DNA of 64,000 nt from an uncultured Dehalococcoidia bacterium (GTDB lineage: Bacteria > Chloroflexota > Dehalococcoidia > Lucifugimonadales > Australimonadaceae): assembly GCA_958295525.1 (NCBI GenBank), contig OY282355.1:62001-126000 (forward strand), given 5' to 3'. Both the position numbers and the translations under genes were made by a program. Below the pieces are notes generated by a model. The model was not told where the DNA came from, made no database searches, and saw nothing but the letters and a program-made list of their open reading frames with translations. Shown here piece after piece: positions 7,074 through 45,026 of the stretch. Every line of letters starts with the position of its first letter. Within the stretch, counting starts at the first letter, position 1.

Positions 7074-7093
7074 GTTCCCGCCTACGCGGGAAC
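7074..7093 (+). repeat. dRS3-like palindrome, single copy (forward)
   Basis: Variant copy with both outer bases changed (GTTCCCGC...GCGGGAAC), which preserves the palindrome, followed by GACGG. Confidence 0.85.
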
Positions 7094-7167: not shown

Positions 7168-7173
7168 ATGCGT

Positions 7174-8517
7174 ATGGCTACATCCCTGCCTAACGCCAAA
7201 GTCGGCGCGATCATCGTCGCGGCGGGCGCGAGTTCGCGCATGGGCGCCGCAGGCGACAAGACGCTCGCCGATCTCGGCGGCGAGCCGCTCATCGCGCGGA
7301 CGGTCGACGTCTTTGAGCGCTGCGCCGCCGTCGCCTGCGTGGCGCTCGTCGTTTCGGAGCGCAACCGTGACGCGGTGGCCGCTCTCCGCGAGGAGAAAGG
7401 TTGGCGCAAGACGGCGCCCCCCGTGCTCGGCGGCGCGAGGCGGCAGGACAGCGTGCGCGCCGGGCTCGAGGCGCTTCCGAAAGATTGCGGTTGGGTGGTC
7501 GTTCACGACGGAGCGCGCCCGTTCGTGACCCAGGAGATGATCGAGGCCGGCCTCGAGGCGGCGCATCCCACCGGCGCGGCGGTCGCCGTCGTTCCCGCGT
7601 TCGACACCGTGAAGCGCGTCGCGCCTGACGGCGGCGTTGTCGAGACGCTCGATCGCTCCGAATTGCGGATGGCGCAGACGCCGCAGGTGTTCCGCCGCGA
7701 CGTCCTCGAGCGCGCCCACGCCGAGGTTGCGGACGACGCGACCGACGACGCGGCGATGGCGGAGCACCTCGGCGTCGAGGTTCGGACGTTCGCGGGGGCA
7801 CGCGCGAACTACAAGATCACGACGGCGGAGGATTTGGAAGCGGGGGGAGGGGTTGAAGGAATGAGCACGGCAAGAATTATTCGAGAGTTGCACGGCTATG
7901 AATTGGGCCTTTTGAATAGCGCATTTGCACATGCTGCGGATAGTTTGCAAGACGCTCCAAGTACGAATGATGATTTGAATGAGGCAATGGTGTTGCTAGC
8001 AGGAAAAATCTTCAACGGTTTGTACAGCGCTATACTCTTGCTGAGTTACGGCCGTTACGATCAGTCGATGACGTTGATTCGAAGCAGTTTGGAATGCAAA
8101 ATAACGGCTCTTCATGCAAAAGAGCATCCGGAAACTATAAAGAAAGTGTTAGAGGGAAAGGCCGTTAATTTTTACCAAATGGCTACAGATCTAGGACAGG
8201 TTGACCTGTGGCGCAACATATACAAAACACTCAGCCATTCCGCGCATCCATCAGGCGCCCGCGAACAGGAGATCCTTTCATCAGAAGGAACGCGGATGCT
8301 CCCAGTTGGTAATGGCAATTATGATCAATTCAGAGTGGTTCATACTCTCCAAGATGTAGTGATAGAATTGCTTAACTTACGAAAGATTATGCAGTGGGTT
8401 AATGCGAAATTTAGAGGTGGGGTTCCAGCAAGCACTGATGCTGCATGGCAAGAATTACTAGATTTGGATGAGTACTTGCAGGAGCGTTACCCGCATTGCT
8501 TTGTCCAAACACCGTAA
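7174..8517 (+). CDS. ispD: IspD cytidylyltransferase fused in frame to an AT-rich accessory domain
   Basis: Residues 1-225 are IspD, which makes CDP-methylerythritol in the MEP isoprenoid pathway. Visible are the CTP-binding IIVAAGASSRMG, GGARRQDSVRAGL, VVHDGARPFV, and QTPQVFRRD. The final IspD helix that normally follows NYKITTAEDL is missing: at about 7850 the sequence changes to MSTARIIRELHGYELGLLNS and about 220 mostly helical residues with much lower GC, resembling DUF5677-type proteins (CKITALHAKEHPET, SHSAHPSG). No stop separates the parts. ATG 7861, with GGGGAGG and GAAGGA upstream, could also start the second part independently. The partner ispF is 16 kb away. Start chosen from the 6-base leaderless spacing. 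Whether a fusion or two proteins are made is open. Confidence 0.8.
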   Translation: MATSLPNAKVGAIIVAAGASSRMGAAGDKTLADLGGEPLIARTVDVFERCAAVACVALVVSERNRDAVAALREEKGWRKTAPPVLGGARRQDSVRAGLEALPKDCGWVVVHDGARPFVTQEMIEAGLEAAHPTGAAVAVVPAFDTVKRVAPDGGVVETLDRSELRMAQTPQVFRRDVLERAHAEVADDATDDAAMAEHLGVEVRTFAGARANYKITTAEDLEAGGGVEGMSTARIIRELHGYELGLLNSAFAHAADSLQDAPSTNDDLNEAMVLLAGKIFNGLYSAILLLSYGRYDQSMTLIRSSLECKITALHAKEHPETIKKVLEGKAVNFYQMATDLGQVDLWRNIYKTLSHSAHPSGAREQEILSSEGTRMLPVGNGNYDQFRVVHTLQDVVIELLNLRKIMQWVNAKFRGGVPASTDAAWQELLDLDEYLQERYPHCFVQTP

Positions 8518-8616: not shown

Positions 8617-10134
8617 ATGACGACGGCCAGCGATACGGCAAGCGGCGCCGATGCGACCTTCGGCAGGCACGTCGCGCCCAGCACGATCTTCACGGCGGAC
8701 AACCTGGACGTGCTGCGCGGGATGAACAGCGCGTGCGTCGACCTGATCTACCTCGACCCGCCGTTCAACAGCAACGCGCAGTACCAGAACCCGTTCGACC
8801 CGGAGGCGCGGTTCCACGATGTCTGGTCGATGGACCGGGTTCGGAAGGGCTGGATGCTGGAACTGCGGCTGAAGCAGCCGCCTCTGCACCACATCATCAC
8901 GGCGGCGGCGGTGACGCACGGGGAGACGATGCAGGCGTACCTCGCCTATATGAGCGTTCGCCTGATCGAGATGCGCCGCGTCCTGAAAGACAGCGGGGCG
9001 ATCTACCTCCATTGCGACCCGAACGCGAGCCACTACCTCAAGGCGGCGATGGACTACGTGTTCGGCCACCGGAACTTCGTGGACGAGATCATCTGGCACT
9101 ACGGCACGCCATCGGGAGGGCGGACGGCGGGCAAGAAGCCGGTCAAGGTTCACGACACGCTGCTGGTCTACGCCAAGTCCTACGGCGATCACGTCTACAA
9201 CGCGCAGTACCTCGCGTATTCGGAGAAGTACGTCAGGGAGCGGTTCACGCATACGGATGAGGACGGACGGGTCTACCGAACGCGCAAACGGGCAGGCGGG
9301 CGCGTGGACAGGCAATACTTGGACGAGTCCAAGGGCGTTCCGCTGTCCAACGTCTGGTCGGATATGAAGCAGTTGTACGCCTATCACCTCGTGCATCGGA
9401 AGCGCGAAGAGACGGGATTTCCCACGCAGAAGCCGCGCGCGCTGCTGGAGCGCATCATTCGCGCGTCCACCAACCCGGGCGACGTCGTGCTCGATCCGTT
9501 CTGCGGCTGCGCGACGGCCTGCGTCGCGGCGGAGGGGATGACGAATGGGCGGAATCCCACGCTGCCGGAGAAGCGCCGCTGGATCGGCGTGGACGTGAGC
9601 GCCAAAGCCTACGAGATGGTCGTCCTCCGTATGGAGGCCGAGTTGGGAATGAAGGAGACGGGGAAGAGCGGGCGGCTCCTCACGCACGCGGGCGAACTGC
9701 GGCATAAGGTGATTTTCTACGAGAAAGAGGATGCGAAAGGCAACCTCTGGCGGCGCACGGGCGGCGACGTTCCCGTTCGGACGGACGCGCCGCAGCCGTT
9801 CGACCTGACGTTCGGGGAGCCGGAGACGCGCTCGCCGAATATCCGCGAGATTCGCTACATCGACCAGGAGGGGCGCTGCGCCGCCGACGGGGAATCGCTG
9901 GCGCTCCGCCACCTCAACACGGAGCATATCGTGTCTCGGAAGAGGCACGACGGCCCGGATGTCGACGGCAACATTCAGTTGATGTGCCAGAGCCACAACA
10001 GCGTCAAGGCGGAAGGGACAATGAGGGAACTGGACGAGAAGATGCGGAGCAGAGGCGAGGAGCCGTGGGAGGACCGCCCGTCGTTCATTCTCGCCGCCGA
10101 GCGCAAGTATCTCCCGCCGCGCCTCCGCCCCTGA
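8617..10134 (+). CDS. Beta-class DNA methyltransferase with C-terminal HNH-like domain
   Basis: A 505-residue protein. The N-terminal part is an amino-methyltransferase (N6-adenine or N4-cytosine) with motif IV first, LIYLDPPFNSN (DPPF at 47-50), and the AdoMet-binding motif VVLDPFCGCATAC near 290, an order typical of the beta class. After residue 400 comes a region resembling an HNH nuclease: GRCAADG, then TEHIVSRKRHDGPDVDGN and IQLMCQSHNSVKAEG. The His-Asn-His/Asn framework is present, but the zinc-binding CxxC pairs are incomplete (only one Cys at each site). It stands alone, with no separate restriction or specificity gene. It may be a one-chain restriction-modification enzyme or a methylase with a non-cutting recognition domain. 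Confidence 0.8.
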   Translation: MTTASDTASGADATFGRHVAPSTIFTADNLDVLRGMNSACVDLIYLDPPFNSNAQYQNPFDPEARFHDVWSMDRVRKGWMLELRLKQPPLHHIITAAAVTHGETMQAYLAYMSVRLIEMRRVLKDSGAIYLHCDPNASHYLKAAMDYVFGHRNFVDEIIWHYGTPSGGRTAGKKPVKVHDTLLVYAKSYGDHVYNAQYLAYSEKYVRERFTHTDEDGRVYRTRKRAGGRVDRQYLDESKGVPLSNVWSDMKQLYAYHLVHRKREETGFPTQKPRALLERIIRASTNPGDVVLDPFCGCATACVAAEGMTNGRNPTLPEKRRWIGVDVSAKAYEMVVLRMEAELGMKETGKSGRLLTHAGELRHKVIFYEKEDAKGNLWRRTGGDVPVRTDAPQPFDLTFGEPETRSPNIREIRYIDQEGRCAADGESLALRHLNTEHIVSRKRHDGPDVDGNIQLMCQSHNSVKAEGTMRELDEKMRSRGEEPWEDRPSFILAAERKYLPPRLRP

Positions 10135-11556: not shown

Positions 11557-12048
11557 GTTCCCGCCTACGCGGGAATGACGTGGCGCCTGGGGTGATTTGG
11601 AGACGAGGCGCGTAGCGCATCGTCCGGCGCTGGGGCGCCTCTGGATTCCCGCCTACGCGGGAATGACGAATGCAAGGGGGCGCTTGCGCTTGCGGGTGAC
11701 GGGGCGAGGGGTTCGCGGCTGCGCGGGAATGACGGCGCTCCAGTAGGTTCCTGCATTCGCGGGAATGACGTGGCGTCGGGGGTGATTTGGAGACGATGCG
11801 CTACGCGCATTCGTCCGGCGCTGGGGCGCCTCTGGATTCCCGCCTACGCGGGAATGACGATGAGGATGGGCGGCGTCTGCAGGCGAGGCGTCCATGATTC
11901 CTGGATTCCCGCCTACGCGGGAATGACGGCGCTCCAGTAGGTTCCCGCTTTCGCGGGAATGACGTGGCGCCTGGGGCGCTAAGGAGACGATGCGCTACGC
12001 GCCTCGTCCGGCGCTGCGCGCCGACTGGGTTCCCGCCTACGCGGGAAT
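11557..12048 (+). repeat. Cluster of nine dRS3-like palindromes in 190-base higher-order units
   Basis: This fills most of a 767-base gene-free stretch (11475-12241). Full or nearly full copies begin at 11557, 11645, 11836, 11905, 11941 and 12029; degenerate ones begin near 11645-11766 as the loop and arms decay (around 11710 and 11747). All share one orientation (GGGAATGACG on the right). A longer unit recurs at about 11581, 11769 and 11964: a TGGCG(C/T)C-GGGG start, GGAGACGA, a GCGCTACGCGC-like palindrome, CGTCCGGCGCTG, and then a palindrome. No coding potential is evident here. Confidence 0.85.
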
Positions 12049-12865: not shown

Positions 12866-12924
12866 CGGCGCCGGATATGCGCCGACGGGTTCCGCGATTC
12901 GCGTTGAACGGGGAGGATGAGCAA

Positions 12925-14217
12925 ATGCGCAGGGGAACGCTTACGAAACGCCTGATCATCGGATTGGCTGCGGTCGCGGCGCTCGCGGCGGGGTGCGGGA
13001 GCGACCCGACGGCCACGCCTACGCCTACCGTAGTTCCGCCGACTCCGACGCCCGCCGACTCCGCCGCGCCGGCCGCCCCCGCGGCCACCCCCACCGCCAC
13101 CCCCGACACGTCGTTCGAGGCGCAGTGGGACCGCCTCGTCAGCGACTGCCAGGCGGAGGGCGAACTCGTGGTGGCTATGGGCGGGAGCGACTCCGCGGTC
13201 GGGCGCCCGATGCTGCAGTGGTTCCAGGACAAGTACGGCGTGCGCGTCATCGCCAGCACGGGCAGCGGGAGCCGGAACGCCGACCGCATCATCGCGGAGC
13301 GCTCGCGGGGGCGCTACACCGTCGACATCAGCCAGGTCGGCACCAGTTCGCTGGAGCGTCTGCGGCAGGCGGAAGCCCTCGCTCCCATCGAGCCGCTCAT
13401 CATCGACCCCACCATCCTCAACCGGACGTCCGAAAACTGGTACCTCTACGACAAGGTCTATTGGACGGACCGCGACAACAAGTACTCGCTCGCGGACACG
13501 CTCCGGTCGGCCAACCTAATAGACGTGTTCTACAACACTGATCTGGTGAGCGCGGAGGAGGCCGCCGCCATCACCTCTTACAACGACCTCCTCGATCCGA
13601 AGTGGCGGGGGAAGATCGGCACGGTTGGGCAGGCGGGCTCCGGGGCGGCCACGACCCGGACGCGGATGTGGATCGTGCTCGGGCCGGAGTTCTACGACAA
13701 ACTGTACTTCGACGCGGAGATTGACGCGGTGGGCTCCGACAACGACCGCGAATTGGCGGACGGGCTGGCGCGCGGCAAGTGGCACATCGCGCTCGGGGGC
13801 GGCAGCGAACCCTACACGCTGATGGAGTTGGGCCTTCCCATCGCGTCCATAACGGACAGCATTGTGATGGAGGAGGGGCTCGCGACGGAGGTTCGGGGGA
13901 CGCTGAGCGCGATCGACCAGCCTCCGAACCCGAAGTGCCAGCAACTGTTCTACAACTGGTACTACTCGCAGGAAGGACAGGAGATCTACCAGACGATCAC
14001 GCTCGACCCGTCGCCGTCGCCGAGCCTGCGCTCCGACGTGCCGCAGGGCCGCGTGCCGGACCGTGAGTGGGAGCAGGTGCAGTTGGTGCCTCAACTCGTG
14101 CGGGAAGGCAGGATCAACGTGATCGACCAGGGTTCGGAGGCGTTCGCGGAGGCAACCGACGCGTCGCTCGCCCGGCTGGTGGAGATCTACACGCAGCGCG
14201 GCCTTTCCATCGGGTAG
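12925..14217 (+). CDS. ABC transporter substrate-binding lipoprotein, Fe3+/family 1 type
   Basis: The start is ATG 12925, with GGGGAGG nine bases upstream. A 430-residue lipoprotein results: lipobox LAAGC, a long Thr-Pro-Ala linker, then a periplasmic binding fold beginning DRLVSDCQAEGELVVAMGGS. Segments such as QWFQDKYGVRVIASTGSGSR, NTDLVSAEEAAAITSYNDLL and DPKWRGKIG are characteristic of the iron(III)/thiamine/spermidine-like binding group (family 1). The double-domain permease that follows supports an iron- or small-molecule-uptake role. No ATPase gene follows in this operon. The tyrosine ligands of ferric-binding proteins are not clearly recognisable, so the substrate is left open. Confidence 0.85.
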   Translation: MRRGTLTKRLIIGLAAVAALAAGCGSDPTATPTPTVVPPTPTPADSAAPAAPAATPTATPDTSFEAQWDRLVSDCQAEGELVVAMGGSDSAVGRPMLQWFQDKYGVRVIASTGSGSRNADRIIAERSRGRYTVDISQVGTSSLERLRQAEALAPIEPLIIDPTILNRTSENWYLYDKVYWTDRDNKYSLADTLRSANLIDVFYNTDLVSAEEAAAITSYNDLLDPKWRGKIGTVGQAGSGAATTRTRMWIVLGPEFYDKLYFDAEIDAVGSDNDRELADGLARGKWHIALGGGSEPYTLMELGLPIASITDSIVMEEGLATEVRGTLSAIDQPPNPKCQQLFYNWYYSQEGQEIYQTITLDPSPSPSLRSDVPQGRVPDREWEQVQLVPQLVREGRINVIDQGSEAFAEATDASLARLVEIYTQRGLSIG

Positions 14218-14237
14218 GGGGCGCGAAAAGGCGGGAA

Positions 14238-14260
14238 GGGGCGGCGCGCCGCGCCGCCCC
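14238..14260 (+). terminator. GC-rich hairpin after the binding-protein gene
   Basis: A perfect 10-bp stem (GGGGCGGCGC / GCGCCGCCCC) with a 3-base loop lies 21 bases after the stop codon. There is no U-tract. It may protect or process the binding-protein mRNA so that it exceeds the permease level, or partly terminate transcription. Confidence 0.5.
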
Positions 14261-14339
14261 CCCTAGACCTTATGCGGACGCCGCTTCGCCGCCGCAGGGA
14301 GTCCGCGTGGCTCCCCGGACGGCGGGCCCGGACGGCGGG

Positions 14340-14365
14340 GCGGAGCGGGGCGCGTCCCGCTCCGC
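14340..14365 (+). terminator. Second hairpin before the permease gene
   Basis: A perfect 10-bp stem (GCGGAGCGGG / CCCGCTCCGC) with loop GCGCGT sits in the 217-base gap between binding protein and permease. No U-run follows; an mRNA-stability or attenuation element is as likely as a terminator. Confidence 0.4.
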
Positions 14366-14434
14366 AGGGGTCCGGGCCGTTGGCGCGGATATTCGGAAGG
14401 CGAGGCAGTCTCCTGAGGGAGCGGCGAGGATGAG

Positions 14435-16240
14435 ATGACGACGGGAGCCGCGCGGATGCTTCCCGCCGCTTGGCGGAAGCCGGAGACCGGCACGATCGTG
14501 ATGTTCATCGTGATCGTGGCCCTGGGCAGTTACCTCATCTACCCGATGATCCTGCTGCTCATCCTGAGTTTCGACACCTCGGCGGAGATACTGGCGGGGC
14601 AGCGCGAGTGGGGGTTCTCCAACTGGATCGAGGCGTGGGACAACCCGCTGCTGCTCGAGGCGATCGGCAACTCGTTCCTCGTTTGGTTTCTCGGCGCGCT
14701 CGTCAGTTTCCCGGTCGCCATCGCCATTTCGCTCGTTCTCGCCCGAACCCGCCTTCCGTTCACCTACGGCATCGAGTATCTGTTCTGGGTCGCGTTTATG
14801 TTCCCGGGCTTGGCGACGACCATCGGCTGGATGATGCTGATGGACCCCGACGTCGGCTTGCTCAACTCTCTCGTCGAGCGGCTGCCGTTCGTCGAGGAGG
14901 GGCCGTTCAACATTTTTGGGCTGGCGGGCATCGTTTGGGCGAATCTTATGGGCAACGGCATCGCCTACAAGGTCATTCTCCTGACGCCCGCGTTCCGCAA
15001 TATGGACGTGGCGCTGGAGGAGGCGGCGCGGGTCTCCGGCGCGTCGAAGATCAGCGCGCTCGCGCGGGTGACCTTGCCTGTGATGATCTCTCCGATCATC
15101 CTGGTGTTCGCTCTTCAACTGCTGCGCGTGTTCAGCGGATTCGAGACGGAGCAGTTGCTCGGCGCGCGCGTGGGCTTCTACGTGTTCTCCACGCTCATCT
15201 ACCGCCAGACGACCACGGAGATACCTCCCGACTATGCGGACGCCATTGTGCTCGCCAGCCTCACGCTCATTCTCATCGCGTTCATCTTCCCGCTTCAGCG
15301 GTGGGTCACCAACCGCCGCCACTACACCACGATCACGGGGCGGTTCCGGCCCGGCCTCATAGACCTGGGCGCATGGAAATGGCCGATTTTCGGCGGGGTC
15401 GCCCTCGTGCTCGCGCTGCTGACCGCCCTCCCGTTCGTCGTCATCGTGATGGGCAGTTTTATGACGCGGGTCGGCTTCTTCAACGCCGTCCCTCTCTGGA
15501 CGTTCGCGCACTGGCAGAACGTTCTCACGGATCCGTTGTTTCTCAAGGCGACGCGGACGACGCTCATTCTCGCGGTGACCGCGGGGGTCGGCAGCCCGCT
15601 GCTTTTCTCGGTCGTCGCCTATCTGATCGCGCGGACGCGATGGCGCGGGCGTTCCGTGCTGGACTCCATCATCTGGGTGTCCGCCGCCTTCCCGGGCATC
15701 ATCTCCTCGCTGGGGCTGCTGCTGCTGTTCCTGGACACGCCGGGGCTCTCCTGGCTCTACGGCTCCATTTGGGCGCTGATACTCGTCGTCATCATCTCCG
15801 GCAACACGACGGGCACCAACGTTTTCAAGGGCATCATGGTGCAGATCGGGGCGGATATGGAGGAGGCGGGGCGCGTGGCGGGGGCGGGATGGCTCCGCAC
15901 GTACTTCCGCATCGTCATTCCCGTGCTGATGCCGACGATGGTCCTCATTGGGGCGCTCAACTTCATCTCCGCCGCCTCGACGACCGCGAGCATCGTGCTT
16001 TTGGCCTCCCGCGACACGCTCACGCTGTCGCTGCTGGCGCTGGAGCGCGCTTCGGCGGGCATCAACCGCGTCGAGGAGGCGGGGATCATCACGCTCGTTA
16101 TTATGTTCCTGACGCTCGGCCTCGCGCTGGTCGCCCGGCAGTTCGGGCTTCGCATAGGCGTGCGGCAGGACGCGAAAGCGAAGGACGCGGCGCAGCCGCA
16201 GCGCGCGGAAGGCCGTCAGGCCGCCGCCGGAATGCGTTAG
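14435..16240 (+). CDS. ABC transporter permease, two fused membrane domains (FbpB/ThiP-like)
   Basis: A 601-residue inner-membrane permease of the iron(III)/thiamine type, in which two permease domains are fused. Each half has about six membrane segments and the EAA loop that docks the ATPase: EEAARVSGASKISALARVTLP near residue 200 and EEAGRVAGAGWLRTYFRIVI near 475. The start ATG has GAGGATGAG upstream. It pairs with the upstream binding protein. No ATP-binding gene is found beside it; an ATPase elsewhere in the genome would have to energise it, or a shared one is used. Confidence 0.85.
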   Translation: MTTGAARMLPAAWRKPETGTIVMFIVIVALGSYLIYPMILLLILSFDTSAEILAGQREWGFSNWIEAWDNPLLLEAIGNSFLVWFLGALVSFPVAIAISLVLARTRLPFTYGIEYLFWVAFMFPGLATTIGWMMLMDPDVGLLNSLVERLPFVEEGPFNIFGLAGIVWANLMGNGIAYKVILLTPAFRNMDVALEEAARVSGASKISALARVTLPVMISPIILVFALQLLRVFSGFETEQLLGARVGFYVFSTLIYRQTTTEIPPDYADAIVLASLTLILIAFIFPLQRWVTNRRHYTTITGRFRPGLIDLGAWKWPIFGGVALVLALLTALPFVVIVMGSFMTRVGFFNAVPLWTFAHWQNVLTDPLFLKATRTTLILAVTAGVGSPLLFSVVAYLIARTRWRGRSVLDSIIWVSAAFPGIISSLGLLLLFLDTPGLSWLYGSIWALILVVIISGNTTGTNVFKGIMVQIGADMEEAGRVAGAGWLRTYFRIVIPVLMPTMVLIGALNFISAASTTASIVLLASRDTLTLSLLALERASAGINRVEEAGIITLVIMFLTLGLALVARQFGLRIGVRQDAKAKDAAQPQRAEGRQAAAGMR

Positions 16241-16280
16241 GCGCCCGCCGCATAGAATCGGAATCGCAAAGGAGGACGCT

Positions 16281-17417
16281 ATGAGCACGACGCAGCAAGA
16301 GAAACCCCACACGAACAGCTGGTGGAAGTCGCCCTACGACGAGTGGCTCGCCGCTCAGGACGTTCCCGTCGTCTCCGGTTACTACATCGAGGACGCGCGG
16401 ACGCTGGAACTGGGCTGGTGGACGCTGCGCGGCTGCGAGGGGGCGGTGCTGAACCTCGTGGGGCACCAGGGCGTGACGGAGGCGCACGTCCTCCGGACGC
16501 CGCCGGGCGGCGAGATCCCGCCCTTCCGGATGGCCGTCGAGGAGGTCGTCTACGTGGTCGAGGGGCAGGGGCTGACCACCGTCTGGGCCGAGGGCCGCCC
16601 CAAGATCAACTTCGAGTGGCAGAAGCACAGCCTCTTCCGCATCCCCGCCAACCACTACTATCAGCTCAGCAACGCCCGGGGCGACCGCCCCGCGCTCACG
16701 CTGCACGTGAGTTACTTGCCGATGGCGATGGGCATCCAGCCCCGCGAGGCGTTCTTCTTCAACAACGAATTCGTCGACACGACGGAGTTGTACAGCGACG
16801 ACGGCAATCCCTACGGCGCCGAAGCCTACGCCGTCCGCGAGTTGGTGGACCGCGGCGGGGAGAAGCATTACACGAACCGCTGGTACGCCAACTTCTTCCC
16901 CGACCTGACCGTCTGGGACCGCCTCACGCCTTACGGCGGGCCGAACCGGCGCGCGCTCGGCGCGGGCATCACGTTCCCCAACTCCGCCATCCGCACGGGG
17001 ATGATGGTTCTTCCTCCGCAGCGTTACCGCTCCGCCCACCGCCACGGCCCGGGCGTCACCATCGTCGGCGTTTCGCCCGGCAACGGGTTCGCCGTGATGT
17101 ACCCGGAAGGCGGCGAGAAGATACTTTGCCCGTGGACGGAGGCGAGCGTGTTCGTTCCGCCGAACAACTGGTTCCATCAGCACGTCAACCCCGGCGCGAC
17201 CGAGAACCGGCAACTCCGCGTCTTCCCGCCCAAGGCGTTGATGGGCTACGACGGCGGCCTGAACAGGGAGATTCCGTTCATCGAGGAAGACCCCTGGGTG
17301 CGCGAGCAGTTCGAGGCGGCGCTCGCCCGCAACGGCGTCCCCTCGCTGATGCCCCGCGAGATCTACGAAGACCCCAACTTCGTTTGGGACGACCCGGAGT
17401 TGAGCGGCGAGGGCTAG
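16281..17417 (+). CDS. Bicupin protein, gentisate dioxygenase-like
   Basis: A 378-residue protein with two cupin barrels. The first holds HVLRTPPGGEIPPFRMAVEE and VVYVVEGQGLTTVW (about residues 73-112). The second holds YRSAHRHGPGVTIVGVSPGN (about 248-270) and WFHQHVNPG, giving His residues in the arrangement of a metal site. Cupins of this layout include gentisate/hydroxynaphthoate dioxygenases and related ring-cleaving enzymes; the exact chemistry cannot be assigned. A strong AAAGGAGG site precedes the ATG, and TAGAAT at about 16254 may provide its own promoter. It follows the permease by 40 bases and is closed by a strong hairpin, so transport and oxidation of one compound is a reasonable inference. 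Confidence 0.75.
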   Translation: MSTTQQEKPHTNSWWKSPYDEWLAAQDVPVVSGYYIEDARTLELGWWTLRGCEGAVLNLVGHQGVTEAHVLRTPPGGEIPPFRMAVEEVVYVVEGQGLTTVWAEGRPKINFEWQKHSLFRIPANHYYQLSNARGDRPALTLHVSYLPMAMGIQPREAFFFNNEFVDTTELYSDDGNPYGAEAYAVRELVDRGGEKHYTNRWYANFFPDLTVWDRLTPYGGPNRRALGAGITFPNSAIRTGMMVLPPQRYRSAHRHGPGVTIVGVSPGNGFAVMYPEGGEKILCPWTEASVFVPPNNWFHQHVNPGATENRQLRVFPPKALMGYDGGLNREIPFIEEDPWVREQFEAALARNGVPSLMPREIYEDPNFVWDDPELSGEG

Positions 17418-17442
17418 CGCGCCGCATTCTCTCTAGCGCAGG

Positions 17443-17475
17443 GCGACGCTCCCGCGAAAGCGGGAGCGTCGCTTT
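17443..17475 (+). terminator. Intrinsic terminator of the ABC/cupin operon
   Basis: A perfect 13-bp stem (GCGACGCTCCCGC / GCGGGAGCGTCGC) closes on a GAAA tetraloop and is followed by TTTG. It lies 26 bases after the cupin stop codon. The very stable stem compensates for the short T-run. Confidence 0.75.
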
Positions 17476-17506
17476 GATGCGGCGCAGCGTCGTTCCGCGC
17501 AGGCGG

Positions 17507-17539
17507 GAATGCAGTCGGCGCGCCGCCGCGCCCCTTGCC
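17507..17539 (+). repeat. 33-base direct repeat, copy 1
   Basis: Identical to 18221-18253 and directly following a decayed dRS3-like palindrome (around 17491-17510). The two copies bracket the 172-aa membrane protein gene. Confidence 0.8.
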
Positions 17540-17592
17540 GCCGAGCGGAAAACCTGCGGGCGGCGCGCTCCGCAAGCGGCGGAGCCCCGCGC

Positions 17593-17598
17593 TATACT
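17593..17598 (+). promoter_or_regulatory. Candidate -10 box (TATACT)
   Basis: GC-prefixed TATACT about 27 bases before the TTG start at 17625, leaving a short leader that contains the GAGG ribosome-binding site. Confidence 0.45.
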
Positions 17599-17624
17599 CA
17601 TGCTTCGAAATAGCGAGGTCATCT

Positions 17625-18140
17625 TTGGACGTCTTTCCGCTAGTCATCTTCTTCGCGGTCGCCGGCGCGTTGGTTCTCTTGGCGGCGCACATAAGCCGCA
17701 AGCGCATCGTTGCGATGCGGCCTCGCGGGCCGCAGTACGTCTGGATCGCCGTCATCAGCCGTCCCCTGGGGGGGCGGGGTCCCATCTACACTCGACAAAA
17801 CGCCGAATCCACGAAGGGAACGCATCGCGCCGCCTACCTGCTGATGCGAGCGGGGCTCCGCATGCGGCTCGTTATGGCCAGAATTCACATCGAGCACGGA
17901 GACCCGACTGGTTGGGCGAGCCACCGGATCGCGGAGCGCGCGTCCTACTCGACCGAGGCGTTTCGTCCGCATAAGGCCGACATTCGGTCGCTGGAGGATT
18001 TCTCTCGCTACGCGCCCTATCGCGCCGACTGGCTCATGCATCTGTCCGTTCACCCGGAAGACGTCCAGGAAGCCGTCCGGCTGCTCCAAGAGGCTGGCCT
18101 CGTCGTCGAACTGCCCCCGGGGAGGCATTGGTGGCATTAG
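17625..18140 (+). CDS. Membrane-anchored protein, unknown (172 aa)
   Basis: The start is taken as TTG 17625 because GCGAGG lies just upstream and the protein then begins with a membrane anchor (DVFPLVIFFAVAGALVLLAA); further upstream the frame is low-complexity Arg/Pro. The cytoplasmic remainder of about 140 residues includes GPQYVWIAVISRPLGGRGP and RLVMARIHIEHGDPTG and ends in a helical motif, HPEDVQEAVRLLQEAGLVVE. This resembles small ligand-binding or winged-helix folds but is not identifiable. It is bracketed by two identical 33-base repeats and does not belong to an operon. Confidence 0.6.
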   Translation: MDVFPLVIFFAVAGALVLLAAHISRKRIVAMRPRGPQYVWIAVISRPLGGRGPIYTRQNAESTKGTHRAAYLLMRAGLRMRLVMARIHIEHGDPTGWASHRIAERASYSTEAFRPHKADIRSLEDFSRYAPYRADWLMHLSVHPEDVQEAVRLLQEAGLVVELPPGRHWWH

Positions 18141-18431
18141 AAGGCGTCCAATGAGCGCAATAAGCGTCTTATTCGTCGGGAGCCTTGCGCCACTTGCCGC
18201 TCTTCCCGCGCAAGCGGGGGGAATGCAGTCGGCGCGCCGCCGCGCCCCTTGCCTAGAACCGCGCGCCTCTGCTAGAGTATCCGACGCTACAGCGTTTGAT
18301 GCACGGGATGCGCGTTCCGCGCTCGTGACCTATCAAGCACAGATCGGAGGGCCGTGCGCCCTCCTGATGAGTCACATCCCGGGCAAGCGCTGTAGCAAGC
18401 ACCTTCGCTCTGTGCCACAGGAGGGTCTTGC
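18141..18431 (+). promoter_or_regulatory. 291-base leader region of the RCC1-like lipoprotein gene
   Basis: Contains a decayed dRS3-like palindrome at about 18203-18223, the second 33-base repeat at 18221-18253, and a TAGAGT box at 18273-18278. From there about 150 bases run to ATG 18432. A GGAGGG at 18343-18350 is too far from the start to serve it; AGGAGGG at 18420-18426 is well placed. No small gene is evident. Confidence 0.4.
18221..18253 (+). repeat. 33-base direct repeat, copy 2
   Basis: Identical to 17507-17539, 714 bases downstream. Confidence 0.8.
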
Positions 18432-20222
18432 ATGCTCCGCTCGCTCTTGGCCGTTGGCCTCATCCTGATAATGCTGGTCGCCGCGTGCGGCACTTCCAGC
18501 GCTCCCGGAACTCCCACCCCTACGCCTCCGTGGTTCGGCATATCCGTGTCCGGGTGGCACGTGGACTCTTTCCATCGTGGATCAGGGACGCTCACCCTTA
18601 AGTCGGACAGCGGCTCTATTACCTCGACTGGCTATCTGCTCGAAGGCGCATCAGGCAATTCCTACGATGGAACGATTGTTGATGAAGAAACCTACGGCTC
18701 GGTCACTATTTCATTCTCTGTTCCTGTGTGGGAGACCAACCTCCGCGTCACACGCAGGAAAACAGACTGGGAAACGAACTGGGTGGATCTCGGAGTCGAC
18801 AAGGAACGAGACTACATCCCACTTGACTTATTTTCAGACCCTGATCCATCTGTCGCTGACTCCGTTTTCACCCCCGACGAAATCCTTGCATCCTTCCGCA
18901 CCAACCCCAATCGCGCGGGCTGGCGCTTCATTGCCAGCGGTCCGGTCAACATTGAGGGCGCTGTCCACAGCATCGGTGATACTCCACCAGCAACTCCGAC
19001 TCCATTGTCTACCCCAGACAGCCCGATGGAAGCCGCCGTCACCGAACAAGTGCGCGGCTTGGGTTACATGGCCGACTCTCTCGCCAGGAGTTTCGGAGTA
19101 GCCGAAACTCCGCTCATCTACCTTTCTCAGACGCCCCAGCAAGCCCGAGAGGCAGGGCCTGGGAACAGCGGCTACCGCGTCTTTTCCTTCCGGCACGCCA
19201 ACCCGAAAGAATTCGCCGTCGGCGAGACGATCAGCGTTCGCTGCAAGATTAGCATTACGAAATTAACTTACACTCTGCGAGAAGTTGTTTGTGACCCTGT
19301 CGAGCCTACGCCTACGCCAATCCCAACGCCAACGCCGGGTTTCCACGCGCCTGAGCAACACACGACGCTCAGCGTCGGCCGTTCATACACTTGCGCCCTG
19401 CAGCAGGACGGAACTCCCGTTTGTTGGGGAGAGGACGAGTTCGGCCAAGCGTGGCCACCGGGGGGCGAGCGGTTCGTTTCCATCAGCATCGGTTCTACGA
19501 GCACTTGCGCCTTGCGTCCCGACGGATCGCCCGTCTGCTGGTCATATTCACCCCTTGCTTCGCTTCCTTGGGACATCCTTGGAGACCGCCTTGCTCAGGC
19601 CTCGCCACAGGACGAGCGATTTGTTTCCATCAGCAGTGAAAGCTGGCACGCCTGCGCCTTGCGCCATGACGGCTCGCCCATCTGCTGGGGGGATAACGAG
19701 GACGGCGAAGCGTCGCCGCCAGAGAACGAGAGGTTCGCTTCCATTAGCAGCGGCTATAGCCATATCTGCGCACTGCGTCCCGACGGCTCGCCTGTTTGCT
19801 GGGGAAACAACAAGTTCGGCCAAGCGTCGCCGCCGCGAGGCGCGCAGTTCGCCACCATTAGCAGCGGCAGTAACCATACCTGCGCGCTGCGCCCCGACGG
19901 CTCGCCTGTTTGCTGGGGGCTCAATGGGAACGACCAAGCGTCGCCGCCGCAAGGCGCGCAGTTCGCTTCCATTAGCAGCGGCAGTAGCCACACCTGCGCG
20001 CTTCGGCAGGACGGTTCGCCCGTCTGCTGGGGAGCTAATGGCGCTGGCCAAGCATCGCCGCCACAAGGCGCGGAGTTCGCCATCATCAGCAGCGGCGGAG
20101 GGCACACCTGCGCGCTGCGCCGCGACGGATCGCCTGTCTGCTGGGGATATGACGGGGATGGCCAAGCGTCGCCGCCGGAGGGCGAGCGGTTCGCCGTGGG
20201 GCGCGTGGACGCGGGGGGTTGA
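18432..20222 (+). CDS. RCC1-like beta-propeller lipoprotein with seven Cys-rich repeats
   Basis: A 596-residue exported lipoprotein: lipobox LVAAC near residue 17, then a Thr-Pro spacer. Residues 30-300 are a domain of unknown type (with RTNPNRAGWRFIASGPVNIE), followed by a Pro-Thr linker (PTPTPIPTPTPG). Residues 315-590 are seven tandem repeats of about 39 residues with consensus HTCALRPDGSPVCWGxNxxG followed by QASPP. This is the RCC1/BLIP-II-type propeller repeat; seven blades would close one propeller. Each repeat carries two cysteines (CAL and VCWG), so fourteen are regularly spaced, consistent with a disulfide-stabilised extracellular structure. AGGAGGG precedes the ATG. The ligand is unknown. 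Confidence 0.8.
   Translation: MLRSLLAVGLILIMLVAACGTSSAPGTPTPTPPWFGISVSGWHVDSFHRGSGTLTLKSDSGSITSTGYLLEGASGNSYDGTIVDEETYGSVTISFSVPVWETNLRVTRRKTDWETNWVDLGVDKERDYIPLDLFSDPDPSVADSVFTPDEILASFRTNPNRAGWRFIASGPVNIEGAVHSIGDTPPATPTPLSTPDSPMEAAVTEQVRGLGYMADSLARSFGVAETPLIYLSQTPQQAREAGPGNSGYRVFSFRHANPKEFAVGETISVRCKISITKLTYTLREVVCDPVEPTPTPIPTPTPGFHAPEQHTTLSVGRSYTCALQQDGTPVCWGEDEFGQAWPPGGERFVSISIGSTSTCALRPDGSPVCWSYSPLASLPWDILGDRLAQASPQDERFVSISSESWHACALRHDGSPICWGDNEDGEASPPENERFASISSGYSHICALRPDGSPVCWGNNKFGQASPPRGAQFATISSGSNHTCALRPDGSPVCWGLNGNDQASPPQGAQFASISSGSSHTCALRQDGSPVCWGANGAGQASPPQGAEFAIISSGGGHTCALRRDGSPVCWGYDGDGQASPPEGERFAVGRVDAGG
19372..20200 (+). repeat. Seven tandem coding repeats of about 117 bases
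   Basis: The coding repeats of the propeller lipoprotein. Repeats 4-7 are very similar at the base level, which points to recent amplification or conversion; repeat 2 carries an insertion (YSPLASLPWDILGDRL). Confidence 0.8.
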
Positions 20223-20286
20223 CGGGGCGGGATGGGGGAGGGTAGGGTTGGGGTTGCGCCGACAGTGCCGAGACTAGGAGGGCGAG

Positions 20287-20586
20287 ATGATGGAAGAAAT
20301 TACGCAAGAAGGGATGAAAGACGACCTCATCCGTATGCTCAAAGAGGCGTTGGCTGAAAGCGAAAGGCCTTCCCCAGACAATGACTTAATTTTGGATCGG
20401 TTGCACAGGGCTAAGAGTCGCCTTGGTTCCCTTGACATGACCGACGCACAGAAGGGCGAAAGCCTCCGGTTAGATATGGCGATCCGGGAGACGGCGCGCC
20501 GGAACTACGTCGGTGCGCAAAGTGCCATCCGTGGAACCATCAATGCCTTCGGAGGCAACACCTCAACAGAAGAGGCTGAGACCTAG
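20287..20586 (+). CDS. Small helical protein upstream of Fic (99 aa)
   Basis: A hydrophilic, mostly helical protein without signal peptide, containing LIRMLKEALAESERPSPDND and LDMAIRETARRNYVGAQSAI. GGAGGG lies just upstream of a double ATG (20287 and 20290). It ends 62 bases before the Fic gene on the same strand, so co-expression is plausible. It lacks the (S/T)xxxE(G/N) motif of known small Fic antitoxins, and the Fic protein carries its own inhibitory helix, so an antitoxin role is not supported. I do not recognise the family. Confidence 0.6.
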   Translation: MMEEITQEGMKDDLIRMLKEALAESERPSPDNDLILDRLHRAKSRLGSLDMTDAQKGESLRLDMAIRETARRNYVGAQSAIRGTINAFGGNTSTEEAET

Positions 20587-20648
20587 CAGCACGCCTCGCG
20601 CCCCCGCGAGATCAACTACGTGGGGCTAGCATCGGTGGGAGGCAAGAC

Positions 20649-22136
20649 GTGGTCGCGCATTACTGGAGTCCTATCACTCCGATGTCGGAGGAAGAGCAGG
20701 CGATTGACCTGTCGTTGCAGCCGTTGTACGGGGCGTGGTACGCCTCCCAGGCAGGGTTGCAGGCGTCTAGGGGGGATAACCTCAAGGCGTTCAACGAACG
20801 CCTCATACGCCGGATGAGCGTCGAGACGGGAATCATCGAACGCTTGTACGACGTGGACAGGGGCACGACGGAGACCATCGTTGAGGCAGGGTTCAACGTG
20901 GATCTCGTGCCGCCGTTGAGCACGGACACCGAGCCTGCGCGCCTTATAGAGATGCTCAAAGGGCACGAAAACGCATACGGTTTGCTTATGGATTGCGTGA
21001 GCGGCCAGCGCGAGTTAACCGTCGGTTTCATCCGCGACGTCCATCACGCCTTCACGCTGCATCAGGATACGATCACCGCCCCTGACATGTTTGGCGTGAT
21101 GCGTAAAATCCCGCTTCTCAAGGGCGAATACAAAAAGTTGCCGAATAACCCAAACCGTCCGGACGGCTTAGTGCATCAGTATTGTCCTCCGGAGCAAGTC
21201 GCTTCAGAGATGGAGAACCTGCTCCGCTACCTGGCGGAGTGCGATAATCTCGATCCTGTGCTGGTGTCCGCGTGGCTGCACCATCGCTTTACGCAGATAC
21301 ATCCTTTTCAGGACGGCAATGGCCGAGTCGCCCGCGGGCTCGTTACGCTGCTGCTTATGAAAGCAAACCTCCTTCCGATAGTGATTGACCGGGATATGAG
21401 GTCCGCATACATCACCGCGCTTGAGGAGGCGGATGCCGGCCATTTGGCAGCGCTGGCCGATCTCTTCGCCGAACAGGAACGGAGGCTCATCATAAAGGCT
21501 CTCAGCCTCGAAGCCGAGGGCGAGCAAAAGCCTTTCGCTGCTTCGGCGGTGATAGAGGACATAGGGGCGCGATTGCGGCGGAGGCAAGAAGAGAGAACAG
21601 CGGCGTTCGCTCAGGTCAATCAGGTCGCGCTGCGCCTGCGAGAGAACGCGCGCGCGATGATTGAAGGAACGCTGTCCGAGTTGCGGCAAAGCGTGCTTGA
21701 TTCCGCGCAAAGTATGCAAGTCGAATCCGTCTATGTCGACCTGGGCGGGCCTGAAGAGGGCAACGCGCATTGGTACAGGCAGGACGTCATCAATTCGACG
21801 CAAGACAGCAAGACGTTTGTGAACTTCAACGAGCCGCATTACTTTGTCAAAGGAGCCTTTAGGGCAGGGCGGGAGCGGCTTGTGTTCGTGGTGTCGTTTC
21901 ACCACGTGGGGCGTGATTTGTCCGGCGTGATGGAAGCGACGGCGTTCGCGCAGTTCGAATCATACGAGGCGTCCGAGGAGCCCCACAGCAAGAGCGTGGA
22001 TTTCGCGCTGTGCTCGAGGTCTCCATTCGTGTTCGCTTACGAAACGCAACCGGAGGTCGTGGCGGAATTATTCTTCGGGGAGTGGCTCGACCACGCGCTT
22101 GCGCTTGCGATGGGGGATTGGGGAAGGCGACTGTAG
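20649..22136 (+). CDS. Fic domain protein, predicted AMP-transferase with internal inhibitory helix
   Basis: A 495-residue protein with the Fic motif HPFQDGNGRVAR at about 218-229 (HPFx[D/E]GNGRxxR), complete for transfer of AMP from ATP to target hydroxyls. An N-terminal helix SVETGIIERLYDVDRG (about 57-72) has the TxxxE pattern of the autoinhibitory helix in class II Fic proteins. After the catalytic domain, residues 290-495 are an additional helical and mixed domain ending in FFGEWLDHALALAMGDWG. Start: GTG 20649 has GGGAGG eight bases upstream; ATG 20682 is an alternative. It follows a small helical gene. Target proteins are unknown. Confidence 0.85.
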   Translation: MVAHYWSPITPMSEEEQAIDLSLQPLYGAWYASQAGLQASRGDNLKAFNERLIRRMSVETGIIERLYDVDRGTTETIVEAGFNVDLVPPLSTDTEPARLIEMLKGHENAYGLLMDCVSGQRELTVGFIRDVHHAFTLHQDTITAPDMFGVMRKIPLLKGEYKKLPNNPNRPDGLVHQYCPPEQVASEMENLLRYLAECDNLDPVLVSAWLHHRFTQIHPFQDGNGRVARGLVTLLLMKANLLPIVIDRDMRSAYITALEEADAGHLAALADLFAEQERRLIIKALSLEAEGEQKPFAASAVIEDIGARLRRRQEERTAAFAQVNQVALRLRENARAMIEGTLSELRQSVLDSAQSMQVESVYVDLGGPEEGNAHWYRQDVINSTQDSKTFVNFNEPHYFVKGAFRAGRERLVFVVSFHHVGRDLSGVMEATAFAQFESYEASEEPHSKSVDFALCSRSPFVFAYETQPEVVAELFFGEWLDHALALAMGDWGRRL

Positions 22137-22180
22137 CCTGCCCCGGGCAAGAGGCCGGGCTAGCCTTGCCGCGGGTCGGC

Positions 22181-22186
22181 TAGAAT
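22181..22186 (+). promoter_or_regulatory. Candidate -10 box (TAGAAT) for the MetE-like gene
   Basis: GC-prefixed TAGAAT about 47 bases before ATG 22234, with GGCAGGAGG as ribosome-binding site between them. Confidence 0.45.
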
Positions 22187-22233
22187 GGCGCGGACGGCGG
22201 GCGCGACCGCAACGCCGTCGGCAGGAGGCGCCG

Positions 22234-23406
22234 ATGCCGGATTTGGACTTGCTCCGCGTTGACCATATCGGAAGCCTGGCGCGGCCCCGCGCCTTGCTGG
22301 AGATGCACGCGCGATTCGACGCCGGAGACGCCTCGCTCGAGGAGTTGACCGCGCTCGAGGACGAGGCGATACGAGACGTCGTCGCCAAGCAGGAGGGCGT
22401 CGGCTTTCCCGTCGTCAACGACGGGGAGTTCCGCCGCCGGAATTTCCAGGACAGTTTCGGCGCGGTGGTCTCCGGCTACGACGCCCCGGAGAGCCGTGAG
22501 GAATACGAACGATGGCAAGAGGGCTCCAGGTCGCAGCGCGAGGAGCGCGTCGAGTCCGGTCCGCAGGTCGCGGGGCCGCCTGTGGTCACGCGCCGCGCCG
22601 CGAGGGAGCGTCTCGTTTTGCGGCGCAACCTTCCGCTCGAGGAGCATCGGTTCGTCGCGAGCATCGCGGGCGCGCCCGACAAGGTGACGCTCATTGGCCC
22701 CGACCGCGTCGCTCAGCGATTCGACTGGCAAGCGTCGGAGGGCGTCTACGCCGGATTGGACGATTTCACGAGCCACGTCGCGGAGATCGAGCGCGAGATG
22801 GTTCTGCAGTTGGCGGAGGCGGGCTGCGGGTACGTGCAGATAGACGCGCCGGGCTACACGGCCTACGTGGACGAGCCGTCGCTTGCGGCGATGCGGGCGC
22901 GCGGCGAAGACCCGGCGGAGAATCTCGCGCGCTCCATCGCGGCGGACAACCGCGTCATCGAGGGCGTCGAGGGGGTTACGTTCGGCATTCACGTGTGCCG
23001 GGGCAACTCGCGGGCGGTGGATCCCGCGACGGGGCGGATGGTTCCGCAGTGGCACCGCGAGGGGCATTACGACGCCATCGCGGAGCAACTTTTCACGGGG
23101 CTGCGCCACAAGCGCCTTCTCTTGGAGTACGACAGCGACCGCGCCGGAAGTTTCGAGCCGCTGCGCTTCGCGCCGAAGGACAAGGTCGTCGTGCTTGGGC
23201 TCGTGACGACGAAGAGCCCGGAGGCGGAGCGCCCGGACGACCTGCTGCGCCGGATCGAGGAGGCGTCGCGCTACATCGGCGTCGAGCAACTGGCGCTCAG
23301 TCCGCAGTGCGGGTTCGCAAGCGGCGCGGCGGAGACGCTGCCGGAGGACGCGCAGTGGCGCAAGTTGGAGGCGATACTCGAAACCGCCGCCCGCGTCTGG
23401 GGTTAG
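22234..23406 (+). CDS. Cobalamin-independent methionine synthase-like methyltransferase (MetE C-terminal family)
   Basis: A 390-residue, single-barrel protein equivalent to the C-terminal half of MetE. The zinc ligands are visible as GIHVCRGNSR (His253, Cys255) and LSPQCGFASG (Cys359). The N-terminal half of full MetE is absent, as in YxjG/YxjH-like and archaeal enzymes, so the methyl donor need not be polyglutamyl methyltetrahydrofolate. The start is ATG 22234, with AGGAGG upstream and DHIGSLARP, the usual family opening, close to the N-terminus; a longer open frame upstream is low-complexity. It probably transfers a methyl group to homocysteine or another thiol. Confidence 0.85.
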   Translation: MPDLDLLRVDHIGSLARPRALLEMHARFDAGDASLEELTALEDEAIRDVVAKQEGVGFPVVNDGEFRRRNFQDSFGAVVSGYDAPESREEYERWQEGSRSQREERVESGPQVAGPPVVTRRAARERLVLRRNLPLEEHRFVASIAGAPDKVTLIGPDRVAQRFDWQASEGVYAGLDDFTSHVAEIEREMVLQLAEAGCGYVQIDAPGYTAYVDEPSLAAMRARGEDPAENLARSIAADNRVIEGVEGVTFGIHVCRGNSRAVDPATGRMVPQWHREGHYDAIAEQLFTGLRHKRLLLEYDSDRAGSFEPLRFAPKDKVVVLGLVTTKSPEAERPDDLLRRIEEASRYIGVEQLALSPQCGFASGAAETLPEDAQWRKLEAILETAARVWG

Positions 23407-23416
23407 AGGGGGCGAG

Positions 23417-23580
23417 ATTCCCGCCTACGCGGGAATGACGATGCGCTGCGCGCCCCGTCTGGGGGCGAGGTTCCCGCCTGCGCGGGAATGACGGGGCCAG
23501 GGGCGAGATTCCCGCTTTCGCGGGAATGACGGGGCGCTGCACGCCCCGTCTAGGGGCGCGATTCCCGCCTACGCGGGAAT
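23417..23580 (+). repeat. Cluster of four dRS3-like palindromes (forward)
   Basis: Copies begin at 23417, 23470, 23508 and 23561, spaced 38-53 bases, with loops CTAC, CTGC, TTTC and CTAC. All read GGGAATGACG on the right. They lie in the 258-base gap before ispF. The intervals contain a CGCTGC(A/G)CGCCCCGTC-type unit repeated near 23440 and 23535. Confidence 0.9.
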
Positions 23581-23644
23581 GACGGGAATGAGGCGGGAAC
23601 GGCGGGGCAAGGGGAGGGATGGGGGGACGGCGGCGGAACTGGGT

Positions 23645-23650
23645 TAGAAT
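23645..23650 (+). promoter_or_regulatory. Candidate -10 box (TAGAAT) for ispF
   Basis: TAGAAT ends 14 bases before ATG 23665 and there is no Shine-Dalgarno, so the leader would be only a few bases long. Confidence 0.45.
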
Positions 23651-23664
23651 GCGGCGCCGCTAAT

Positions 23665-24189
23665 ATGACCACCCGATTCGGCATAGGCTACGACGCGCAC
23701 CGGCTCGCCGAGGGCGTTCCTCTCGTGCTGGGCGGCGAGCGCGTTCCCTCGGAGCGCGGGCTCGCCGGGCACAGCGACGGCGACGCGGCGGCGCACGCCG
23801 TCGTGGACGCGCTCCTCGGCGCGGCGGCGCTCGGCGACATCGGCGCGCGCTTCCCCGAGGACGATCCCGCCACGCCGCGCGGCGTCTCGAGCCTCGTTCT
23901 TCTCGAGCGGACGTCGGCGCTTCTGCGCGAGGCCGGCTGGCGCGTGGTCAACGTGGATGCTACAATCGTTCTTCAGCGTCCCCGGCTCGCGGATCATCTT
24001 CCCGCGATGCGGGCCAACTTCGCCGCCGCCATTGGCGTGGACGTCTCCGCCGTGAGCGTCAAGGCGACCACCGAGGACGGGCTCGGCTTCACGGGGGCGG
24101 GCGACGGCGCGTCCGCTATGGCGGTCGCCTCAATTACGGACGATTCCGGCATCACGGACGCCTCCGGCTCTATGGACGATTCCGCATGA
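23665..24189 (+). CDS. ispF: 2-C-methyl-D-erythritol 2,4-cyclodiphosphate synthase
   Basis: IspF catalyses the cyclisation step of the MEP isoprenoid pathway. Signature segments are IGYDAHRL (metal ligands Asp and His), HSDGDAAAHAVVDALLGAAA with the third metal His, and DIGARFPEDDP, followed by the CTP/substrate region VSVKATTEDGLGFTG. The usual enzyme of about 158 residues ends near ASITD; here a 15-residue tail with the imperfect repeat TDDSG-ITDASG-SMDDS follows. The last four bases overlap the cysS start (ATGA), so the two are translationally coupled. The usual upstream partner ispD is 16 kb away. Confidence 0.95.
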   Translation: MTTRFGIGYDAHRLAEGVPLVLGGERVPSERGLAGHSDGDAAAHAVVDALLGAAALGDIGARFPEDDPATPRGVSSLVLLERTSALLREAGWRVVNVDATIVLQRPRLADHLPAMRANFAAAIGVDVSAVSVKATTEDGLGFTGAGDGASAMAVASITDDSGITDASGSMDDSA

Positions 24190-25553
24190 AACTCTCCGAC
24201 ACGCTGACCGGCCAGAAGCGCGAGTTCGCGCCTTCCGGCGACGAGGTTCGCATCTATGTCTGCGGCGTGACGCCCTACTCGTCGGCGCACGTCGGCCACG
24301 CGATGAGTTACATCGTCTTCGACGCGCTCCACCGCTATTTGGAGTTCCGCGGCTTCCGGGTGCGGCGCGTTCAGAATTTCACGGACATAGACGACAAACT
24401 CATCGAGCGCGCCGCGCAAGAGGGAACGACGGTCGAGGCGCTCGCGGAGAAGCACGTCGCCGAGTACTTCGAGAATATGGCCGCTCTCAATGTCCGCGAG
24501 GCCGACGTCTACCCTCGCGCGACGCAGGAACTGCCTAAGATCGTCGAGATGATCGCCGGCCTCGTCGCCTCGGGGCACGCCTACGAGTCGGGGGGCGACG
24601 TCTATTTCCGCGTCCGCAGCGACGAGGAGTACGGCAAGTTGAGCCGGCGGTCGCTGGACGCGATGCGGGCGGGGGCGCGGGTGGAGCCGGGCGTGAGCAA
24701 GGAGCATCCGATGGACTTCGCGCTTTGGAAGTCCGCGAAAGCGGGCGAGCCCGCGTGGGAGAGTCCCTGGGGAGCGGGCCGTCCGGGCTGGCACATCGAG
24801 TGCTCCGCGATGGCGCTGCGCTATCTGGGCGAGAGCGTGGACATCCACGGCGGGGGGCAGGACCTCGTCTTTCCGCATCATGAGAACGAAATCGCCCAGA
24901 GCGAGGCGTTCACCGGCAAGCGTCCGTTCGCCCGTTTTTGGCTGCACAACGGCCTGCTCAATATGGACGCGCAGAAGATGAGCAAGTCGCTGGGCAACTT
25001 GGTGACGATCAGCGAGGCGCTGGCGCGCTATTCGGCGGACGCCATTCGTCTCTCCGTGCTGAACGCGCACTACCGCAGCCCTGGCTACTACTCCGACGAG
25101 GCGCTCGCGGGGTCGGAGCGCGCCGCGGCCCGCCTCCGGCAGGCGCTCGCCGCTCCCGCGAACGGGGACGCGGGCGCCGCCCTCGATCCGCAGCCCGCCC
25201 GCGAGCGGTTCGTCGAGGCGATGGACGACGACCTCAACACGCCGCAGGCGGTCGCCGCGCTGTTCGACCTCGCGCGGGAGGTCAACCGCGAGTCGGCGGA
25301 GGGGCGAGGGGTCGCGGGGGCGCAGGAGACGCTGCGCGAATTGGCGGGCGTGCTTGGCCTCACGCTGCGCGAGCCGGAGTCGGCGGTGGACGCGGGATTC
25401 GCCGCCCGCGTGGACGCGCTCGTCGCCCGCCGCAGCGAACTCCGCGCCGCGCGCGATTTCGCAGGCGCCGACGGCGTCCGCGCCGAACTCGCCGCGATGG
25501 GGATCGAACTCACCGACTCCCCGTCGGGCACGACGTGGCGCGCAGCCGGGTGA
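24186..25553 (+). CDS. cysS: Cysteinyl-tRNA synthetase
   Basis: A 455-residue class I aminoacyl-tRNA synthetase. Zinc ligand Cys is in IYVCGVTPY, the HIGH motif is SAHVGHA, GWHIECSAMA and DLVFPHHENEIAQSEA complete the zinc and active site, and AQKMSKSLGN is KMSKS. The C-terminal helical domain ends in RAELAAMGIELTDSPSGTTW. Length is normal. The start overlaps the ispF stop. Downstream lies the membrane protein/TIR cassette. Confidence 0.97.
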   Translation: MKLSDTLTGQKREFAPSGDEVRIYVCGVTPYSSAHVGHAMSYIVFDALHRYLEFRGFRVRRVQNFTDIDDKLIERAAQEGTTVEALAEKHVAEYFENMAALNVREADVYPRATQELPKIVEMIAGLVASGHAYESGGDVYFRVRSDEEYGKLSRRSLDAMRAGARVEPGVSKEHPMDFALWKSAKAGEPAWESPWGAGRPGWHIECSAMALRYLGESVDIHGGGQDLVFPHHENEIAQSEAFTGKRPFARFWLHNGLLNMDAQKMSKSLGNLVTISEALARYSADAIRLSVLNAHYRSPGYYSDEALAGSERAAARLRQALAAPANGDAGAALDPQPARERFVEAMDDDLNTPQAVAALFDLAREVNRESAEGRGVAGAQETLRELAGVLGLTLREPESAVDAGFAARVDALVARRSELRAARDFAGADGVRAELAAMGIELTDSPSGTTWRAAG

Positions 25554-25586: not shown

Positions 25587-25653
25587 GGCAGCGTAAAGGG
25601 GGGTATAGGCGGCGGGCGGACTACGTGGAGCTTCAGCAGGAAAGAGATGGACT

Positions 25654-26121
25654 ATGGCTCTCCGATCGCTCCACAACGCTGACTCCTCGTCCGTCCAAGC
25701 CCACCTGACCATTATGCAAGGCGTGGTCCAGCGGATGGCGGAGAACAGCCGCGCGTGCAAAGTCTGGTGTGTCACGCTCGTTTCCGCGATCCTCGTGCTC
25801 GTGGCGCGCACTGGCGAGCCCCGGCATGCGTTGCTCGCGCTTGCCCCCGTTGCGCTCTTCTGGCTGCTGGACGCCTACTACCTCGCGCTGGAGCGGGCGC
25901 TCCGCAAGTCATATGAGGCGTTCGTTTCCAAACTGCACGCGGGCAACTTGGCGACGGCTGACTTGTACCGCGTGAAACCCACGAAGATGAGCGCCAGGCT
26001 CTTCGCGGCGTGCATCAGATCGTTCTCGGTTTGGCTGTTCTACGTCGTCTTGCTCGTTACGATTGTGCTCGCGTGGCTGCTTGTGCTACCATCGGATTCG
26101 ATGCTGGCGAGAGGAGAATAG
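25654..26121 (+). CDS. Three-helix membrane protein, partner of TIR-like effector (155 aa)
   Basis: A small membrane protein with an N-terminal amphipathic stretch AHLTIMQGVVQRMAENS, a first hairpin of two membrane segments (about 36-51 and 59-74) separated by a short loop, a cytoplasmic helix (LERALRKSYEAFVSKLHAGN) and a third membrane segment (about 125-145). The pattern RMAxNSxxxK followed by FWxLDAYYL...ERxxRxxYE belongs to a small membrane family that, from memory, sits next to TIR-like genes. It ends two bases before the TIR gene, whose ribosome-binding site (GAGGAGAA) is embedded in its last codons, so the two are one translational unit. It could be a sensor, anchor or pore. Confidence 0.75.
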   Translation: MALRSLHNADSSSVQAHLTIMQGVVQRMAENSRACKVWCVTLVSAILVLVARTGEPRHALLALAPVALFWLLDAYYLALERALRKSYEAFVSKLHAGNLATADLYRVKPTKMSARLFAACIRSFSVWLFYVVLLVTIVLAWLLVLPSDSMLARGE

Positions 26122-26123
26122 CG

Positions 26124-30092: not shown

Positions 30093-30267
30093 ATTCCCGC
30101 GAAGGCGGGAATCTCGCCCCCGTCCGTAGCGCGCAGCGCATCGTCCTTCCCGCACACTGCCCCCGTCGTTCCCGCGTAGGCGGGAATCCCGCCCCCTCTG
30201 CATCGTCGTTCCCGCGTAGGCGGGAATCTCGCCCCCGCCTCCCTGTCGTTCCCGCGCAGGCGGGAAT
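30093..30267 (-). repeat. Cluster of four dRS3-like palindromes (reverse)
   Basis: Copies begin at 30093, 30168, 30208 and 30248 with loops GAAG, GTAG, GTAG and GCAG, each followed by CTC(G/A)CC or CCCGCC. The cluster fills the gap between two convergent genes. Confidence 0.9.
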
Positions 30268-45020: not shown

Positions 45021-45026
45021 TATAGT
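45021..45026 (+). promoter_or_regulatory. Candidate -10 box (TATAGT) for the type III mod gene
   Basis: GC-prefixed TATAGT 56 bases before ATG 45083; AAGGAG is the ribosome-binding site. Confidence 0.45.

Follow-up and report, generated by a model that had tools for sequence, protein, structure and literature searches.

Bifunctional enzymes in which IspD (2-C-methyl-D-erythritol 4-phosphate cytidylyltransferase, TIGR00453/PF01128) is fused to IspF are documented, for example in Campylobacter jejuni and Mesorhizobium loti (PMC5821942). A natural IspD-IspF fusion was also met among the loci read here, in Peptococcaceae bacterium 1109 (L058, 6606–6710), where the sequence GRGGGK occupies the place of the last IspD helix. 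For DUF5677 (PF18928), the only match in the full-text literature was a Salmonella clinical-severity study, with two mentions in its text, and no solved structure matching the domain by sequence was found.

In the window, i.e., the whole 64,000-nucleotide stretch of an uncultured Dehalococcoidia bacterium analysed here (genome assembled as a single contig of 2.51 Mb), an ispD gene reads in frame into a DUF5677 domain. The arrangement resembles the IspDF enzymes in being a C-terminal extension of IspD, and the L058 example in lacking the last helix, but the partner is DUF5677 and not IspF; no YgbB (IspF domain) match was found in the joined open reading frame (ORF), which is thus not an IspDF, and ispF stands separately at 23665. 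With a probability of roughly two in three, we read the locus as two neighbouring genes, an acquired DUF5677 gene abutting ispD, the joined frame being a by-product of the junction that likely depends on a single base.

The joined open reading frame

The ORF runs from 7168 to 8517 on the forward strand (449 aa) with no internal stops; the start at 7174 reported previously is its second in-frame ATG. As stated in an earlier note on this DNA, IspD continues in frame into an AT-rich DUF5677-like domain: the frame is continuous, both families score over their cut-offs when aligned, and the GC content falls from ~0.72 to ~0.45 across the junction, with the codon-usage coding signal lost at 7841. 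The ispD portion (7168–7836, forward strand) matches PF01128 over residues 13–224 (E=1.3e-54) and TIGR00453 at 209.2 bits, above the cut-off of 181.3. Against NF001186, the full-length equivalog IspD model, it reaches 207.7 bits versus a cut-off of 253, the match stopping at position 216 of 224. In the alignment to the solved IspD structures 5ddt and 2yc3, the segments AGxSxRM, HDxARP, TPQ and NxKxTTxxDL are all present and the core is complete up to NYKITTAEDL; IspD would therefore keep its catalytic core, judging from the sequence. It differs from other IspD proteins in what follows. The usual C-terminal helix and stop are absent, the motif [IV]AxA[LM]L found after EDL in most relatives is missing, in agreement with the loss of the final helix noted before, and eight codons for EAGGGVEG (7837–7860, forward strand), which include a G6-A-G4 tract at 7842–7852, stand in its place, after which the frame stays open.

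The DUF5677 ORF proper (7861–8517, forward strand, 218 aa) has its own ATG, and GGAGG at 7846–7850, with a spacing of 10 bases, is its likely ribosome-binding site, so that the independent start suggested earlier is indeed plausible. The PF18928 match begins at residue 273 of the joined ORF (40–43 bits, best 43.3, cut-off 27.1). With its own Met and a length similar to that of free-standing homologues, this part resembles other DUF5677 proteins; it differs from them in that the upstream frame is open into ispD and the first ~13 residues of the homologues are absent. Structure predictions gave a mean pLDDT of 40 for the fusion and 39 for the domain alone, these low-confidence models being mainly helical.

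Relatives of the two parts and the rearranged locus

An ispD was detectable in four of the five genus mates, at 75–79% identity, and no match was found in the fifth, a fragmented assembly. IspD ends 8 residues past EDL in L008 and L009, the two closest relatives, 12 past it in L010 and 13 in L011; in the remaining ispD loci read, the end falls no more than a few dozen residues from this position, L058 excepted. No IspD-DUF5677 fusion was found in the relatives read, nor any other copy of the junction in 16 genomes of the family, and a search of the full 449-aa protein against the genome contigs matched only one IspDF and one plain IspD. IspD relatives naturally carrying the domain, which would have made the arrangement an ordinary one, were thus not encountered.

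DUF5677 was absent from all five genus mates. A further 97 relatives, together with 400 genomes drawn separately from the phylum, yielded only five distant DUF5677 proteins (26–35% identity). The homologous ORFs at these five loci (L003–L006 and L060), found within the order and class, have no IspD in any case; for L003, L004 and L060 the alignment starts at a Met of the homologue itself, close to where 7861 lies, and the ORF of L005 bears an N-terminal stretch resembling a helix-turn-helix. No DUF5677 relatives were found in plasmids, phages or viral contigs, and the DUF5677 part had no match in PHROGs or, for 7861–8514, among the known defence models of PADLOC. Its composition and its absence in the genus mates suggest that this DNA is of foreign origin.

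The surrounding gene order is also altered. In genus mates ispF-cysS lies ~0.2 kb behind ispD, whereas in the window ispF (23665–24189) and cysS (24186–25553), both on the forward strand, are 15.8 kb away. The genes at 12877–17417, whose homologues precede ispD in genus mates (all three genes in L052–L054, only the third in the stretch of L055), are here placed between ispD and ispF. A dispersed palindromic repeat, TTCCCGCCTACGCGGGAA, is found at 7075–7092 (forward strand), with 42 matches on both strands at ≤2 mismatches (window 6249–62032) versus 0.01 expected and arrays at 11558–12047, 23418–23579, 30094–30266, 44859–44954 and elsewhere. Copies sit just upstream of both ispD and ispF and might have served as recombination points. 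The gene following the joined ORF (8617–10134, forward strand), starting 100 bases downstream, codes for an N6/N4 DNA methylase that also matches HNH weakly; it has 28 matches in the genome, one of them 74% identical at G000:C1:1570889-1572415, and is one of several paralogues.

The region 12877–23665 also holds an RCC1-repeat protein (18432–20222) and a Fic protein (20649–22136). An ORF with a ThsB-like TIR domain (PF08937) lies just after cysS at 25962–26699, and at 45026–49257 a DNA methylase ORF precedes a ResIII/DEAD ORF, in a layout resembling that of a type III restriction-modification pair.

The junction and the one-base question

The codons after EDL read GAA GCG GGG GGA GGG GTT GAA GGA ATG, and the joined frame most likely hinges on one base adjoining the G-rich tract GCGGGGGGAGGGG. 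In the +1 frame a TGA (7862–7864) occurs exactly 8 codons past EDL, the length of the L008 and L009 IspD, and overlaps the ATG at 7861–7863 as ATGA; if one base is skipped, the match to the tail DNA of L008 moreover improves from 13/30 identical positions as read to 18/29. These observations favour an offset of one base, next to the G tract, that turned an overlapping gene pair into a single frame. The support is moderate, because an alternative-frame stop 7–13 codons on occurs in ~10% of cases in native genes and because the shifted tail still does not carry the IAxALL helix, which is restored in neither frame; a family HMM of IspD tails had no preference between the two. That the frame is open over the 8 codons of the junction is not remarkable in itself, since abutting ORFs lie in the same frame in about one case out of three. 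The offset would be due either to a recent mutation or to an error in sequencing; only reads would tell a base error from a recent indel or from a true breakpoint.

The frequency of such errors was sampled in the window together with 21 further stretches (about 0.46–0.48 Mb in all, 396 kb called coding), in which 84 pairs of abrupt same-strand frame switches were counted. Pfam analysis of nine of these pairs (four in the window, five elsewhere) and of a looser window pair at 25609–26696 retrieved no single family split in two; several pairs were clearly two different families, and others had a Pfam match for just one member of the pair or for none. Indel errors therefore do not look common in the sampled genome, which does not favour a random base error a priori; a single one at 7842–7852 may still be present, to be seen only in reads. 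On the minus strand of L071 (1283–3065), the coding frame of a ResIII-like ORF switches beside a C-run cluster, a possible frameshift or overlapping genes.

A further candidate concerned the start of the downstream ORF: ATGAGCACG at 7861 matches the ispF start of the family members L013 and L014, and might have been what is left of an ispD-ispF overlap. This reading was dropped because ispF in the window, 15.8 kb off, starts ATGACCACC, and because in L008, the one genus mate for which the start of ispF was read, ispF begins MTT ~0.2 kb past the ispD stop.

Two abutting genes or one protein

Two abutting genes are preferred to a fusion since no relative carries the fusion and the DUF5677 homologues occur without IspD, three of them with their own Met near 7861; the break in GC content and codon usage at the junction and the broken ispD-ispF-cysS order point in the same direction. 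A foreign AT-rich DUF5677 gene would have come to sit immediately after ispD in a rearranged region, and ribosomes would start at ATG 7861 by means of GGAGG, probably aided by translation coming from ispD. The internal start would thus be used and two separate products made, IspD and DUF5677. The joined frame would not be a selected two-domain enzyme and most likely hangs on a single base within or close to the G-rich tract, ispD ending one frame over at the TGA within ATGA.

Clearly less probable, and in our view doubtful, is a true fusion, in which recombination cut ispD after EDL(EA), with loss of the last helix and stop, and an open in-frame DUF5677 leader gave a 449-aa protein in addition to DUF5677 from its own start. 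The sequence as given does read as a single frame, the locus is rearranged, the sampled genome has no clear indel errors, and the residues after EDL are unlike the IspD helix in either frame; the glycine-rich GRGGGK of L058 indicates that IspD may tolerate such a loss. Against this stand the one-frame-over stop at native length, overlapping the downstream ATG, and the lack of any relative with IspD-DUF5677. The insertion proposed in the earlier note to explain the junction is accordingly retained in part: foreign-looking DUF5677 DNA lies at the ispD 3' end in a rearranged locus, but a clear removal of the ispD stop is not seen, as a TGA persists one frame over.

That a genuine IspD-DUF5677 fusion is translated as an isoprenoid enzyme with a regulatory or defence-like domain is very improbable. 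The former idea of an essential enzyme tied to a possible defence protein found no support, given that no relative has the fusion, PADLOC gave no match and the homologues are separate genes. Least probable of all is a fusion selected for function, with DUF5677 regulating or localising IspD, or IspD acting as sensor for a defence effector: only the open frame and the DNA methylase gene next door speak for it, the defence idea resting on that neighbour alone as DUF5677 has no PADLOC or PHROGs match, whereas the arrangement occurs in one genome only, the AT-rich part is probably a recent acquisition, and the methylase is a paralogue among several that starts 100 bases further on.

An automatic pipeline would enter this locus as one two-domain IspD of 449 aa, where two genes are probable, and caution is thus needed. 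If the fusion were true, it would show that IspD tolerates a foreign domain where its last helix normally lies.
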